This document shows positions 9,350-28,621 of a DNA stretch of 64,000 bases, in pieces. Positions within the stretch are counted from its first letter, which is position 1. Each line of letters starts with the position of its first letter. The stretch comes from Zoogloea sp. (GTDB taxonomy: Bacteria; Pseudomonadota; Gammaproteobacteria; Burkholderiales; Rhodocyclaceae): contig NZ_JAFLDT010000004.1 of NCBI RefSeq assembly GCF_017302315.1, positions 62,001 to 126,000 of the forward strand. The letters run 5' to 3'. A model generated the notes under the pieces. The model saw only the letters and a list, made by a program, of their open reading frames with translations. It was not told where the DNA came from and searched no databases. The position numbers and the translations under genes were made by a program.

Positions 9350-9402
9350 AGAACGTGTTTACTGCGGCCGTCCGGTCGCGCGTGTCGTCTGCGAGGCTCC
9401 TG

Positions 9403-11862
9403 TTGTCTGAATCTCTCCCGTCGTCCGAGCACGACTGCTATCACTGCGGGCTACCCATCCCCGCCGACGTGGATCTCCAGGTGGAGATCGAAGGGGTGCC
9501 GCACCGGATGTGCTGTACGGGGTGTCAGGCTGTTGCCCAGTCCATCGTGAGTAGCGGCTTGGTGGATTACTACAAGCGCCGCGACACGCTGCCCGAGCAA
9601 GCCCGCGAGGCCATGCCCGACGAGCTCAAGGAACTGGGGCTTTTCGATCATCCGGATTTTCAGCAAGGCTTCGTCAAGCCTATTGGTGAACACGAGCGGG
9701 AAGCCGACCTGATCCTCGAAGGCATCACCTGTGCCGCCTGCATCTGGCTCAACGAGCAGCACGTCGCCCATCAGCCCGGAGTCACGGCGGTGGACATCAA
9801 CTACGCCACCCGGCGGGCACGGGTGCGATGGGACGAGCGCCGGATCAAGCTCTCCGACATTCTCGGGGCCATCCAGGCCATTGGTTACCGGGCCTATCCC
9901 TATGACTCCGCCCGGTCGGAGCAGATTTCCCAGCGCGAGCGTCGTTCCGCCCTGTGGCGTCTGTTCGTGGCCGGCTTCGGCATGATGCAGGTCATGATGT
10001 ACGCCTTTCCGGTGTACGTGGCCGATCCTGGCGACATGACGGCCGACATCGAGTTGTTGATGCGCTGGGCCAGCCTGATTCTCACCGCGCCGGTGGTGCT
10101 GTACTCCGCAGCGCCCTTCTTCAGCCACGCCCTGCGTGACGTGCGCCTGCGTCGCCTGGGAATGGACGTGCCCGTAGCCCTCGGCGTGGGGGCGGCCTTC
10201 GTGGCAAGTTGTTGGGCCACCTTCACGGGCAAGGGGGAGGTGTACTTCGACTCGGTCACCATGTTTGTGTTCTTTCTGCTGTGCGGGCGTTACGTCGAAA
10301 TGCTTGCCCGTCAGAAGGCTGTGCGAGGGGTCGAGGAGCTGGGCAAGGCCTTGCCCGCCTTTGCTGAGCGACTGGCGGCCTACCCGCTGCCCGAGGGAGA
10401 GCGGGTGCCCGTCTCGCAGCTCCTGGTGGGTGACATTATCCGCATCAAGCCCGGTGAAACCGTCCCCGCGGACGGTGTGGTGGTTGGCGGCAGCAGCGAG
10501 GTCAACGAAGCCCTCCTCACGGGTGAGAGCCGGCCAGTGCCAAAGACGCCGGGGGGCGAGGTGACGGGCGGAAGCCTCAACATCGGAAGCCCCCTGACCG
10601 TGCGGGTCAGTCGCACCGGCGACAACACCCGGCTTGCGGCCATCCGCCATCTGATGGAGCGAGCGTCGGCAGAGAAGCCGAGGGTCGTCCAGCAGGCCGA
10701 CCGCGTCGCCGCATATTTCATCGTAGCGTTGCTGGTGCTTGCGGTGGTAACGGCCGCGTGGTGGTGGTGGACCGATCCAGACCGGGCTTTGTGGGTCTTT
10801 GTTTCGGTGCTGGTGGTGAGCTGCCCCTGCGCTTTGTCCCTTGCAACGCCGGTGGCCCTCACGGTGGCCACCGATGCGCTGGCTCGCATCGGTGTATTGG
10901 TGACCCGTGGGCACGCCATCGAAGCCCTGGCCCGCGCCGATCATTTCGTTTTCGACAAGACTGGAACCCTTACCTATGGCGAGATGCGGGTCGAGCAGAT
11001 CCGCCTGTTGGGCCGTGCCGAAGAGGCGGATGTCCTGGCGCTGGCTGCTGCGCTCGAACAGGGGTCCGAACATGCCATCGCTGCGGCGCTGCGTCTGCGG
11101 GTGGGGACCGCGGCCTTGCCGGTCCTCGTCGAACTCGCCGCGACCACGGGGCAGGGCGTGTCGGGTTCGCTGGCCGGTGTGCGCCATCGTATCGGGCGGC
11201 CGAGCTTCGTTGCCGACCTGACCGGTTCGCCGGTGCCCGAGGCTCTGCGTGAAGACGAACGCTCGGGCCGTACCGTGATTGCCCTGGGGTCGGAGAAGGG
11301 CTGGCTGGCTGGCTTCACCCTGTCCGATGGGCTCAGGGAGGATTGCCCCGCGGCTTTCGAGTCTCTGCGTAGAAAGGGTATCGCTCTTTCCATCTTCAGT
11401 GGCGATACGCCTTCCACCGTCGAGGAGTTGGGTCGCCGCCTCGGTGTAGCACAGGCCCTCGGCGGCATGACGCCCGAGGACAAGCATAGCGGCCTGGTGG
11501 CCCTGCAAAAGGGTGATGCCGTGATTGCCATGGTGGGCGATGGCGTGAACGACGCCCCGGTGCTGGCCCAGGCGCAGGTATCGGTGGCCATGGGCGGCGG
11601 TACCGATCTGGCCCGCAATCAGGCTGACATCGTTCTGCTGAACGGTCACCTCTTGTCTCTTGCTGACGGCGTCAGCCTGTCCCGGCGGGCGCTTGCCATC
11701 ATCAGGCAGAACCTATGGTGGTCGTTTGCCTATAATTTCACAGCGATACCCCTTGCCATGCTTGGGCTCGTCACACCCTGGATGGCAGGTATCGGCATGT
11801 CGGCGAGTTCACTCTTTGTCGTTCTGAACGCCCTGCGCCTCCAGCGCAGGCTGTCCCGCTGA
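9403..11862 (+). CDS. ccoI: Copper-transporting P-type ATPase for cbb3 oxidase assembly, CcoI/FixI
   Basis: This P1B-type ATPase exports copper to the periplasm for assembly of cbb3 cytochrome oxidase. The N-terminus has a Cys-rich metal-binding segment (CYHCG, MCCTGC), then an HMA-like domain with TCAAC, then the ATPase core with the membrane CPC motif (474-476), DKTGTLT (phosphorylated Asp518) and GDGVNDAP. I chose the TTG at 9403 because GAGG stands six bases upstream and the product begins just before CYHCG, as in homologues. A GTG at 9355 is in frame but has no ribosome site and would add 16 residues. ccoS follows closely. The oxidase genes ccoNOQP are not present in the window. Confidence 0.93.
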   Translation: MSESLPSSEHDCYHCGLPIPADVDLQVEIEGVPHRMCCTGCQAVAQSIVSSGLVDYYKRRDTLPEQAREAMPDELKELGLFDHPDFQQGFVKPIGEHEREADLILEGITCAACIWLNEQHVAHQPGVTAVDINYATRRARVRWDERRIKLSDILGAIQAIGYRAYPYDSARSEQISQRERRSALWRLFVAGFGMMQVMMYAFPVYVADPGDMTADIELLMRWASLILTAPVVLYSAAPFFSHALRDVRLRRLGMDVPVALGVGAAFVASCWATFTGKGEVYFDSVTMFVFFLLCGRYVEMLARQKAVRGVEELGKALPAFAERLAAYPLPEGERVPVSQLLVGDIIRIKPGETVPADGVVVGGSSEVNEALLTGESRPVPKTPGGEVTGGSLNIGSPLTVRVSRTGDNTRLAAIRHLMERASAEKPRVVQQADRVAAYFIVALLVLAVVTAAWWWWTDPDRALWVFVSVLVVSCPCALSLATPVALTVATDALARIGVLVTRGHAIEALARADHFVFDKTGTLTYGEMRVEQIRLLGRAEEADVLALAAALEQGSEHAIAAALRLRVGTAALPVLVELAATTGQGVSGSLAGVRHRIGRPSFVADLTGSPVPEALREDERSGRTVIALGSEKGWLAGFTLSDGLREDCPAAFESLRRKGIALSIFSGDTPSTVEELGRRLGVAQALGGMTPEDKHSGLVALQKGDAVIAMVGDGVNDAPVLAQAQVSVAMGGGTDLARNQADIVLLNGHLLSLADGVSLSRRALAIIRQNLWWSFAYNFTAIPLAMLGLVTPWMAGIGMSASSLFVVLNALRLQRRLSR

Positions 11863-11870
11863 GGATTCCC

Positions 11871-12065
11871 ATGGAAAGCCTTTACTTGCTGATACCGCTG
11901 TCCGTTGTGCTGGTTTTCGTGATCGGGGTCGTATTCTGGTGGTCGGTGCGGAGCGGTCAGTTTGATGATCTCGAAGGGCCGGGTTATCGGGTGGTGGTCG
12001 ACGATGACGCTCCGCCGTCGGCGAAGCCTCCGGTCAAGGGAGAGGAAGGCGCCGAGCCCCGCTGA
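11871..12065 (+). CDS. ccoS: cbb3-type cytochrome oxidase assembly protein CcoS
   Basis: This 64-residue protein has one N-terminal membrane helix (LYLLIPLSVVLVFVIGVVFWW) followed by SGQFDDLEGPG, the signature of CcoS/FixS. CcoS is needed for insertion of cofactors into cbb3 oxidase. It starts eight bases after ccoI and is certainly co-transcribed with it. The C-terminal tail is acidic and proline-rich. A perfect FNR box begins 36 bases beyond its stop. Confidence 0.95.
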   Translation: MESLYLLIPLSVVLVFVIGVVFWWSVRSGQFDDLEGPGYRVVVDDDAPPSAKPPVKGEEGAEPR

Positions 12066-12100
12066 CAAATCGAAAATTCACCCTTCTATCTGAATGGTTT

Positions 12101-12142
12101 TTGACCCAAATCAAGACGCCCGGGCAGGGAAGTGCGCATACT
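12101..12142 (+). promoter_or_regulatory. FNR/ANR-dependent promoter (class II) for a small RNA
   Basis: TTGACCCAAATCAA at 12101-12114 matches the FNR consensus TTGAY-N4-RTCAA at every defined base. CATACT at 12137-12142 fits a -10 element. A start site near 12149 puts the centre of the FNR box at -41.5, the standard position for class II activation. No open reading frame with a ribosome site follows. Confidence 0.8.
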
Positions 12143-12148
12143 TCGCTC

Positions 12149-12259
12149 CAAGTTGAAAACGCGAACACGAGCAACAACATGCGTTTTCGTGGCGCGATGG
12201 CGCCAAGACTGAAGTCTCTCTGTTGGGGTTGGGGGTGCGCGATGCGCACCCTTTTTTTT
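12149..12259 (+). ncRNA. Candidate FNR-induced small RNA downstream of ccoS
   Basis: The predicted transcript of about 110 bases has four clear stems. GAAAACGC (12155-12162) pairs with GCGTTTTC (12181-12188) around an 18-base A/C-rich loop. GGCGC (12191-12195) pairs with GCGCC (12200-12204). AGAC (12206-12209) pairs with GTCT (12214-12217). GGGTGCGC (12233-12240) pairs with GCGCACCC (12244-12251) and is followed by eight Ts, a classic terminator. A G-rich single strand (GTTGGGGTTGG) precedes the terminator. The only reading frame, from an ATG at 12179, lacks a ribosome site and runs through the terminator into ndk. The layout resembles anaerobically induced, Hfq-binding RNAs such as FnrS (enterics) and AniS (Neisseria), but I do not recognise the sequence as either. 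Targets are unknown. Confidence 0.72.
12233..12259 (+). terminator. Intrinsic terminator of the candidate sRNA
   Basis: An 8-bp, almost all G/C stem (GGGTGCGC with GCGCACCC) with a 3-base GAT loop runs directly into eight Ts. Confidence 0.92.
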
Positions 12260-12525
12260 GTTTCGTCGCCCCCCTGTCGCCACACGACGAATGCCCTCCA
12301 TGCGCCCTTGCTGTCCGACCGCCTTGTCGGACCCGAGATGGGGTCTTCAGTCGTTCCGTCCCTGGGTTTATCTCGTGCTCCGCCGGGCACTTGCCGCTGG
12401 CGTCCCTTGCTTTTCACTCGCTCTCATGGCGGCCTGCGCGGAAAAGCGCCGATCTGCAGCGCCAACCTGCTAAAATTCCGGGCTTTAGTTTTTCGACCAT
12501 CCCTTGTCTCACTGGAGTCTGCCTC
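12260..12525. other. Leader region of ndk, no gene seen
   Basis: This 266-base stretch lies between the sRNA terminator and ndk. Reading frames cross it but lack ribosome sites and family resemblance; one is just ndk read in frame upstream of its true start. It holds two overlapping hairpins: GTCCGAC (12313-12319) with GTCGGAC (12326-12332), and GACCC (12330-12334) with GGGTC (12341-12345). They share bases 12330-12332 and cannot both form fully. A weak -10 (TAAAAT, 12471-12476) may serve ndk. Confidence 0.5.
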
Positions 12526-12951
12526 ATGGCCATTGAACGTACCCTGTCCATCATCAAACCCGATGCCGTCGCCAAGAACGTGATCGGCCAGATCTACGCC
12601 CGCTTCGAAGGCGCCGGCCTGAAGATCATTGCTGCCAAGCTCGTGCACCTTTCCGAGCGTGAAGCCGGCGAGTTCTATGCCGTGCACAAGGAGCGTCCCT
12701 TCTTCAAGGATCTCGTTTCCTTCATGACGTCCGGCCCGGTGATGATCCAGTGCCTCGAAGGGGAGAACGCCATCGCCAAGAACCGTGAGCTGATGGGCGC
12801 CACGGACCCGAAGAAGGCCGATAAAGGCACCATCCGTGCCGATTTTGCCGAATCCATTGATGCCAACGCTGTGCATGGCTCCGACGCGCCCGAAACTGCG
12901 GCGGTCGAAGTTGCCTTCTTCTTCCCCGGCATGAACGTTTACAGCCGTTGA
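12526..12951 (+). CDS. ndk: Nucleoside diphosphate kinase
   Basis: Ndk equalises nucleoside triphosphate pools by moving the gamma phosphate between NTPs and NDPs through a phosphohistidine. The 141-residue protein begins [18 protein letters not shown], and the catalytic His117 lies in [12 protein letters not shown], as in the family. The ATG at 12526 has GGAG eight bases upstream. The reading frame is open far upstream, but that extension does not resemble any protein. It heads the ndk-rlmN-pilW-rodZ-ispG-hisS series. Confidence 0.98.
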
Positions 12952-21599: not shown

Positions 21600-21842
21600 A
21601 TGAGCAACAAGGGGCAACTCCTACAAGATCCGTTCCTCAACGCATTGCGGCGCGAACATGTGCCCGTCTCCATCTATCTCGTGAACGGTATCAAGTTGCA
21701 AGGACAGGTTGAATCCTTCGATCAGTACGTTGTTCTGTTGAAGAACACCGTAACCCAAATGGTGTACAAGCACGCCATCTCGACCGTTGTGCCTGCTCGG
21801 CCGGTCAATATTCAGCAGGAACAGAACGAGGCAGCAAGCTGA
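21600..21842 (+). CDS. hfq: RNA chaperone Hfq
   Basis: Hfq is a hexameric Sm-like protein that binds small RNAs and mRNAs and helps them pair. The 80-residue product has the Sm1 region ([19 protein letters not shown]) and the Sm2 motif YKHAIST at 56-62. It has a short C-terminal tail, as is usual in Betaproteobacteria. It has its own promoter just upstream and leads the hfq-hflX-hflKC group. Its presence makes Hfq-dependent action of the candidate FNR-controlled RNA plausible. Confidence 0.98.
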
Positions 21843-28097: not shown

Positions 28098-28182
28098 TGG
28101 TGCCCAGAAGAGGACTCGAACCTCCACGCCTCGCGGCACTAGTACCTGAAACTAGCGCGTCTACCAATTTCGCCATCTGGGC
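28098..28182 (-). tRNA. tRNA-Leu (anticodon CAG), copy 1
   Basis: The minus strand reads GCCCAGA at the 5' end, pairing with TCTGGGC at the 3' end, followed by the discriminator A and an encoded CCA. The anticodon loop is TTCAGGT with anticodon CAG, reading CUG, and the T arm contains GGTTCGAGTCC. The 85-base length with a long variable arm is typical of class II tRNA-Leu. All 85 bases equal those of copies 2 and 3. Confidence 0.97.
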
Positions 28183-28194
28183 AAAGAAGGCCTA

Positions 28195-28222
28195 ATTATA
28201 GACTATTCCTTCGTTTTTGCAA
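28195..28222 (-). promoter_or_regulatory. Promoter of tRNA-Leu copy 1
   Basis: On the minus strand TTGCAA (28222-28217) and TATAAT (28200-28195) are separated by 16 bases, and the -10 ends 12 bases before the tRNA. Confidence 0.85.
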
Positions 28223-28275
28223 GGAGATTGGCGGAGGTTTTCTATCGCTGGTCTGGTATAACTTTGGGAAGCAAA

Positions 28276-28311
28276 ATGAAGAAAGCCGGTCGCAATTGAC
28301 CGGCTTTCTTC
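28276..28311 (-). terminator. Terminator of tRNA-Leu copy 2
   Basis: GAAGAAAGCCGGTC (28278-28291) pairs with GACCGGCTTTCTTC (28298-28311), a perfect 14-bp stem with a 6-base loop. On the minus strand it is followed by ATTTTG. Confidence 0.85.
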
Positions 28312-28317
28312 ATGAAT

Positions 28318-28402
28318 TGGTGCCCAGAAGAGGACTCGAACCTCCACGCCTCGCGGCACTAGTACCTGAAACTAGCGCGTCTACCAATTTCGCCATCTGG
28401 GC
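28318..28402 (-). tRNA. tRNA-Leu (anticodon CAG), copy 2
   Basis: This is an 85-base class II tRNA identical to copy 1, with 7-bp acceptor stem, CAG anticodon, long variable arm and encoded CCA. It has its own promoter and terminator. Confidence 0.97.
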
Positions 28403-28413
28403 AATAAAGCGCT

Positions 28414-28441
28414 ATTATAGAACAAATTGATGCATACGCAA
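28414..28441 (-). promoter_or_regulatory. Promoter of tRNA-Leu copy 2
   Basis: On the minus strand TTGCGT (28441-28436) and TATAAT (28419-28414) are 16 bases apart, 11 bases before the tRNA. Confidence 0.85.
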
Positions 28442-28495
28442 AAGCCTTGCCGTCTGAAGCCCTCCGGCGTCATCTGTTCCAGATCGAAACGATCA

Positions 28496-28521
28496 AAGAA
28501 AAAGCCGGTCAAAAGACCGGC
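28496..28521 (-). terminator. Terminator of tRNA-Leu copy 3
   Basis: GCCGGTC (28504-28510) pairs with GACCGGC (28515-28521) around AAAA. On the minus strand the stem runs into TTTTTCTTT. The core stem is the same as in the other two tRNA terminators. Confidence 0.88.
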
Positions 28522-28536
28522 TTCCTCGAAACATCC

Positions 28537-28621
28537 TGGTGCCCAGAAGAGGACTCGAACCTCCACGCCTCGCGGCACTAGTACCTGAAACTAGCGCGTC
28601 TACCAATTTCGCCATCTGGGC
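28537..28621 (-). tRNA. tRNA-Leu (anticodon CAG), copy 3
   Basis: This is the third 85-base tRNA-Leu(CAG), identical to the other two and closest to rnr. It has a consensus promoter of its own. Three copies fit heavy use of CTG leucine codons in a GC-rich genome. Confidence 0.97.

Follow-up and report, generated by a model that had tools for sequence, protein, structure and literature searches.

Does the DNA that follows the oxidase assembly gene ccoS in this Zoogloea genome carry a gene of its own? In the window, which is the whole stretch of 64,000 nucleotides that was analysed, a heavy-metal P-type ATPase gene (9355–11862, ccoI by its domains and position) is followed by ccoS (11871–12065, cbb3 oxidase assembly) and then by ndk (12526–12951), all on the plus strand. 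A predicted sRNA of about 111 nt (12149–12259, plus strand) falls between ccoS and ndk. It is very probably the product of a stand-alone gene for a trans-acting repressor sRNA, activated by FNR, likely to depend on Hfq, and similar to FnrS in its mode of action.

The promoter region begins with an FNR/ANR-type box, TTGACCCAAATCAA, on the plus strand at 12101–12114 (centre 12107.5). The FNR consensus is TTGAT-N4-ATCAA. The box agrees with it at 9/10 positions, and its description as perfect in the initial annotation was a slight overstatement. It is the sole match to TTGAYN4ATCAA with 0 mismatches in the 64 kb; when ≤1 mismatch is allowed there are 7 matches against a chance mean of 4.84, which is near chance. 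The hexamer CATACT (12138–12143, plus strand), which shares 4/6 positions with TATAAT, lies at the class II distance from the box, and a class II start is therefore expected near 12149. The genome contains an FNR gene (256.6 bits against a cut-off of 228), and we infer that the predicted RNA is transcribed from this promoter under FNR activation. The presumed chaperone gene, hfq, is located outside the sRNA locus at 21600–21842 on the plus strand, in the window and approximately 9 kb away as had been stated, a distance that is by itself uninformative.

The signals of the locus rise well above chance because they are conserved in homologous loci. A DNA search of 60 genomes, with strong homologues defined by E≤2e-6, found them in 21/23 Zoogloea genomes and in 8/13 other genera of the family, and in 0/24 genomes outside the Rhodocyclaceae as GTDB defines the family. 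The predicted RNAs of the homologues are 69–127 nt long. A TTGAN6TCAA box is kept in 29/29 homologous loci, and ccoS is found just upstream in 28/29, the remaining locus beginning at a contig edge. A -10-like hexamer, sought between 13 and 33 nt from the box centre, occurs 28–29 nt from it in 28/29 loci, in agreement with the class II spacing that the initial annotation had proposed. Comparative genomics thus strongly backs the original reading of the segment as an FNR-controlled sRNA gene directly after ccoS. Alignment of the box and stems among relatives had been set beforehand as a test that could overturn this reading, and with the box present in every homologous locus it did not do so.

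A covariance model of the 3' core (R1, the last 54 positions) extends this distribution. At E≤0.01 it matches 240/297 genomes of the family, representing 58/68 genera, although in 8 of the 240 no match is better than E 3e-4. At the level of the order, 83/399 genomes score; the matches outside the family are mostly weak and terminator-like, with two strong exceptions (G478 and G497) and one intermediate (G374). The covariance-model search that had been suggested as a check therefore came out in favour of a family-wide 3' core, whereas the 5' half of the predicted RNA diverges between genera.

A separate set of loci was chosen solely by the 18-base core in named genomes and comprises at least 118 loci. 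Among the matches listed, 112/118 have a terminator; the other 6 lack one, look chance-like and were removed before boxes and ccoS were counted. An FNR-type box lies within 200 nt upstream of 108 of the 112 terminator-bearing loci listed, compared with a background of about 0.05 per 200 nt over the same loci, and in 103 of the 112 ccoS precedes the core in the same orientation, no more than 450 nt away. These counts score as misses three loci whose upstream sequence does not reach far enough to look for ccoS (L101, L167 and L186); in two of them (L167 and L186) it is also too short for the box test. A strict -10 pattern is found in only 74 of the 108 boxed loci among the matches listed. The genera represented among these matches include Azoarcus, Aromatoleum, Thauera, Dechloromonas, Azonexus, Azospira and Accumulibacter, as well as Sulfuritalea, Denitromonas, Uliginosibacterium, Tepidiphilus and Hydrogenophilus. 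The last two genera account for three loci with the core (L122, L184 and L186), and two Tepidiphilus loci retain the core with a terminator stem of different sequence. Six MAG loci (L102, L115, L125, L148, L175 and L182) have the core and terminator with no ccoS within reach; five of them carry an FNR-type box, and they are relocated or second copies.

The predicted RNA consists of stems in series, all read on the plus strand. Its fold has a z of -2.46, with 4/200 shuffles equally or more stable. Stem-loop 1 (12155–12188) pairs 12155–12162 with 12181–12188 around an A/C-rich loop of 18 nt (12163–12180), and stem-loop 2 (12190–12205) is paired in 84.3% of cells, in a part of the alignment that is uncertain. 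These are followed by a short AGAC/GTCT stem (12206–12217), which is weakly conserved, and by the intrinsic terminator (12231–12259), a hairpin at 12231–12253 with a T tract, which is covered by R1. The strong terminator of the initial annotation is thus present. There are 5 terminator-like sites in the 4.5 kb around the locus compared with 4.1 in shuffles, and the hairpin at 12231–12253 has the longest stem. Among 21 Zoogloea sequences the named structure is paired in 94.0% of cells. Covariation scores 0.242, compared with 0.151 in shuffles (0/500 as high), an excess that kinship among the sequences can produce even without structure. The 6 pairs with a two-sided change and the 16 further pair types in these sequences do not exceed the shuffles (176/500 and 361/500). 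Four pairs of stem 1 have changed on both sides within Zoogloea, as has part of stem 2. The terminator is invariant in the genus and is therefore uninformative about pairing either way. Of the four stems originally described, two-sided changes are thus seen in the first and in some of the second; the third is short and poorly kept, and the terminator does not vary in the genus.

The most strongly conserved parts of the RNA are the terminator arms and a core, UCUCUCUGUUGGGGUUGG (12215–12232, plus strand), both of which are near-invariant across genera. Conservation of the core extends to every base irrespective of reading frame; when the predicted RNA is folded as a single sequence, some of the core is paired. 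It is the proposed seed for target pairing and is complementary to ribosome-binding sites. Two regions had been put forward earlier as likely to pair with targets. The G-rich strand at about 12222–12232 forms part of the near-invariant unit at 12215–12232, and this proposal is borne out. The A/C-rich loop is kept in part of Zoogloea only and is replaced in some species; this narrow conservation makes a role as the main seed improbable, and we have set the loop aside.

The antisense of the core is found at ribosome-binding sites of other genes. In the 23 Zoogloea genomes an antisense 12-mer occurs in 21 sRNA genes and at 8 other places, compared with 3 for the reversed control, so that the bare 12-mer signal is only modestly above control. 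When a shorter antisense site followed by an ATG is sought in these genomes, 22 rows result, including 3 from the sRNA gene itself, and the control yields 5. Across 199 genomes of the family, an 11-base site with an ATG 2–18 nt downstream gives 52 rows, and its reversed control gives 7. The sRNA gene itself accounts for 19 of these rows, leaving 32 distinct sites, and 25 of the 32 lead into an ORF of 100 aa or longer, a count that has no control of its own. As read from the sequence, the ORFs encode a TusE/DsrC-like protein (three genomes), sucA (two), hmp, a MOSC-domain protein, erpA-like and DsrE-like proteins, PEP carboxykinase and others. Protein family searches, confined to flavohemoglobin, MOSC, HbpS-like, NifS-like (aminotransferase class V) and TusE/DsrC, agreed with these readings in each case. 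The seed thus appears to have several predicted targets. Antisense sites at the ribosome-binding site of the MOSC-domain gene occur in three Zoogloea genomes (G022, G020 and G021; L252, L261 and L265), and this gene is a second candidate target in the genus.

The best predicted target is the TusE/DsrC-like sulfur-relay gene. Its protein belongs to the TusE/DsrC/DsvC family but does not reach the equivalog cut-off for TusE, and most members carry only the penultimate Cys. Orthologues, defined by E≤1e-42, occur at 53 places in 52 of the 297 family genomes searched, covering 14 genera. For 49 of them, in genomes that bear the sRNA, the median duplex energy is -28.6 kcal/mol, and in 43/49 the duplex is matched by no more than 2/200 shuffled cores. 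The six that fall below this threshold are in G309, G071 (where the start is uncertain), G095, G083, G181 and G329. Four further orthologues in three genomes with no sRNA match pair more weakly, though not negligibly: -20.2 kcal/mol in G063 (3/200), -22.5 in G110 (1/200), and -17.6 (24/200) and -16.1 (42/200) in G225. Since these orthologues still pair, part of the signal from C-rich sequence and the Shine-Dalgarno (SD) motif is independent of the sRNA. Among TusE/DsrC-like paralogues only 1/13 reaches 2 of 200 shuffles. The gene was not found in 12 Zoogloea genomes searched at E≤1e-42 or in 3 searched at E≤1e-10, and it is therefore not the target in the window's own genome.

The TusE/DsrC-like gene is also preceded by an operator resembling IscR type 1 (L320–L335 and L354–L375). 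When scored with the IscR type 1 consensus, 33/34 upstream regions reach 19–23 of 25, with no more than 1/100 shuffles as good; no such operator was found in the remaining one of the 34 (L361). The operator starts 53–79 nt before the start codon in 32 regions, and in L364 the best match is at -114. The sRNA site comes directly after the operator. It may be that FNR, acting through the sRNA, overrides IscR-type transcriptional control at the same mRNAs as a family-wide oxygen switch, a tentative proposal to which we give somewhat less than an even chance. If true, iron-sulfur status would set the transcription of a sulfur carrier and oxygen status its translation.

In the window's own genome (G000), hmp is the only target found with the strict site patterns. 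One of the 8 places outside the sRNA genes where the antisense 12-mer occurs belongs to this genome and is where a full flavohemoglobin gene has its ribosome-binding site; the gene product scores 425 bits, slightly short of the cut-off set for the NCBIfam flavohemoprotein model (432 bits). The site forms 18 bp with the core at -35.4 kcal/mol, and no shuffled core does as well (0/300). The hmp genes of G020 and G021 pair at -30.2 kcal/mol (0/300), pairing in G022 is marginal (17/300), and the remaining 7 of the 11 hmp genes in Zoogloea pair less strongly or have no site, with 23 to 299 of 300 shuffles as good. The gene occurs at E≤1e-60 in 11/121 family genomes, and outside Zoogloea its best pairing is equalled by 8/300 shuffles. 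The predicted targeting of hmp is lineage-specific, with strong pairing in 3/11 Zoogloea hmp genes. As a family-wide target hmp was rejected, the 0/300 sites being confined to G000, G020 and G021.

Taken together, these features suggest the following course of events. As oxygen falls, FNR would bind the box at 12101–12114 and activate the class II promoter, and RNA polymerase would transcribe about 111 nt before stopping at the intrinsic terminator. The 5' hairpin or hairpins would act as spacer and stability elements, variable between genera, and the core would probably be presented by Hfq, bound via the U tract of the terminator. The core could then pair over the Shine-Dalgarno region of a target mRNA (sense site CCAACCCCAACAGAGAGA, a few bases 5' of the start codon) and block translation. 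Among the predicted targets are the TusE/DsrC-like gene, in many genera, and, for the window's genome, hmp. The core matches ribosome-binding sites, and the sRNA therefore probably shuts its target genes down in low oxygen.

Each of the other explanations fits these observations less well than an FNR-activated repressor sRNA. The segment is flanked by ccoS and ndk, all three on one strand, has an FNR promoter and then a terminator, and could be read as a cis element in which the end of the ccoI-ccoS transcript is joined to an FNR promoter with an attenuated leader for the downstream gene. However, ndk is near the predicted RNA in Zoogloea loci only, yet the core is near-invariant across genera, and complementary sites exist at other genes; we consider a cis element very improbable. 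That the transcript codes for a small protein is barely credible. ORFs do span the region (e.g. 12101–12583, plus strand), but a predicted length of 69–127 nt among the homologues, a divergent 5' half, and conservation of the core at each base whatever the frame all argue against translation.

Two further explanations accept the RNA and differ in what it would do. The near-invariance and unusual G-richness of the core, together with the presence in the same genome of CU-rich sRNAs of the RF02278 family, would be compatible with titration of a protein or another RNA in place of mRNA pairing. The core, however, shows no advantage over shuffled cores in pairing with the two RF02278 RNAs (407/500 and 236/500 as good or better), leaving a sponge for these sRNAs unsupported. 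By eye, the core also lacks the GGA motif of CsrA/RsmA-type binding, and conserved mRNA sites exist, so that titration has a slim chance of being correct. Computed pairing carries no sign, and the same mRNAs could be activated or stabilised. Nevertheless, there is overlap between these sites and the Shine-Dalgarno region, a few bases 5' of the start codon, where pairing is usually repressive. Activation is thus improbable, and repression by an FNR-activated sRNA is the reading that we infer.

Among the Rhodocyclaceae, a family with Zoogloea, Thauera, Azoarcus, Dechloromonas and Accumulibacter, are major denitrifiers and phosphorus removers of wastewater, whose way of life depends on changing between oxic and anoxic conditions. 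The predicted sRNA occurs in most of the family genomes searched, usually adjoining an oxidase assembly gene, with a nearly invariant seed and a conserved predicted target. Through it, sulfur relay would be tied to low-oxygen signalling, as would the detoxification of nitric oxide in some Zoogloea.

No Rfam family matches the region at its gathering score. The FnrS model gives no match at its gathering threshold and is absent from the 7 matches at E≤10 in 11900–12500. The best of the weak matches is SorX (E 0.016, 20.8 bits against a gathering score of 46.6), and SorY is also among those at E≤10 (21.5 bits against 111); neither was accepted. The RF02278 model has 7 matches in the window's genome; the region is not one of them, and the model does not appear among the region's matches at E≤10. 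Two RF02278 (S17/bdhR1-type) sRNA genes, both CU-rich, are above the cut-off elsewhere in this genome (L031 and L032). Within the window, three tandem tRNA genes of equal score lie at 28101–28621 on the minus strand with a spacing of about 220 nt. A search of the open-licence literature found no description of this sRNA and no FNR-controlled sRNA for the Rhodocyclaceae; in the part of an Aromatoleum systems paper that was available, small RNAs are mentioned once and in general terms (PMC9765128).

The predicted RNA can nonetheless be compared with several known systems. FnrS of the enterobacteria is an FNR-activated sRNA that acts on mRNAs in low oxygen. The present RNA is also aimed, by prediction, at mRNAs in low oxygen under FNR activation, but its neighbour (ccoS), seed and targets differ. 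In Neisseria, AniS of meningococci and FnrS of gonococci are sRNAs made under oxygen limitation, whose targets were termed elusive in 2017 in the portions consulted of PMC5362039; the predicted RNA would resemble them in its response to low oxygen. S17, bdhR1 and other members of RF02278 are described, in the part of PMC11722255 available, as sRNAs of betaproteobacteria that target ribosome-binding sites through a short pairing segment, itself highly conserved. The predicted RNA shares this arrangement; identity with the family was rejected because RF02278 does not match the RNA, which is G-rich where members of RF02278 are CU-rich. With a class II FNR site, a terminator with a U tract, a conserved seed and conserved target sites all found, the predicted RNA has the features of the functional class of FNR-activated base-pairing sRNAs.
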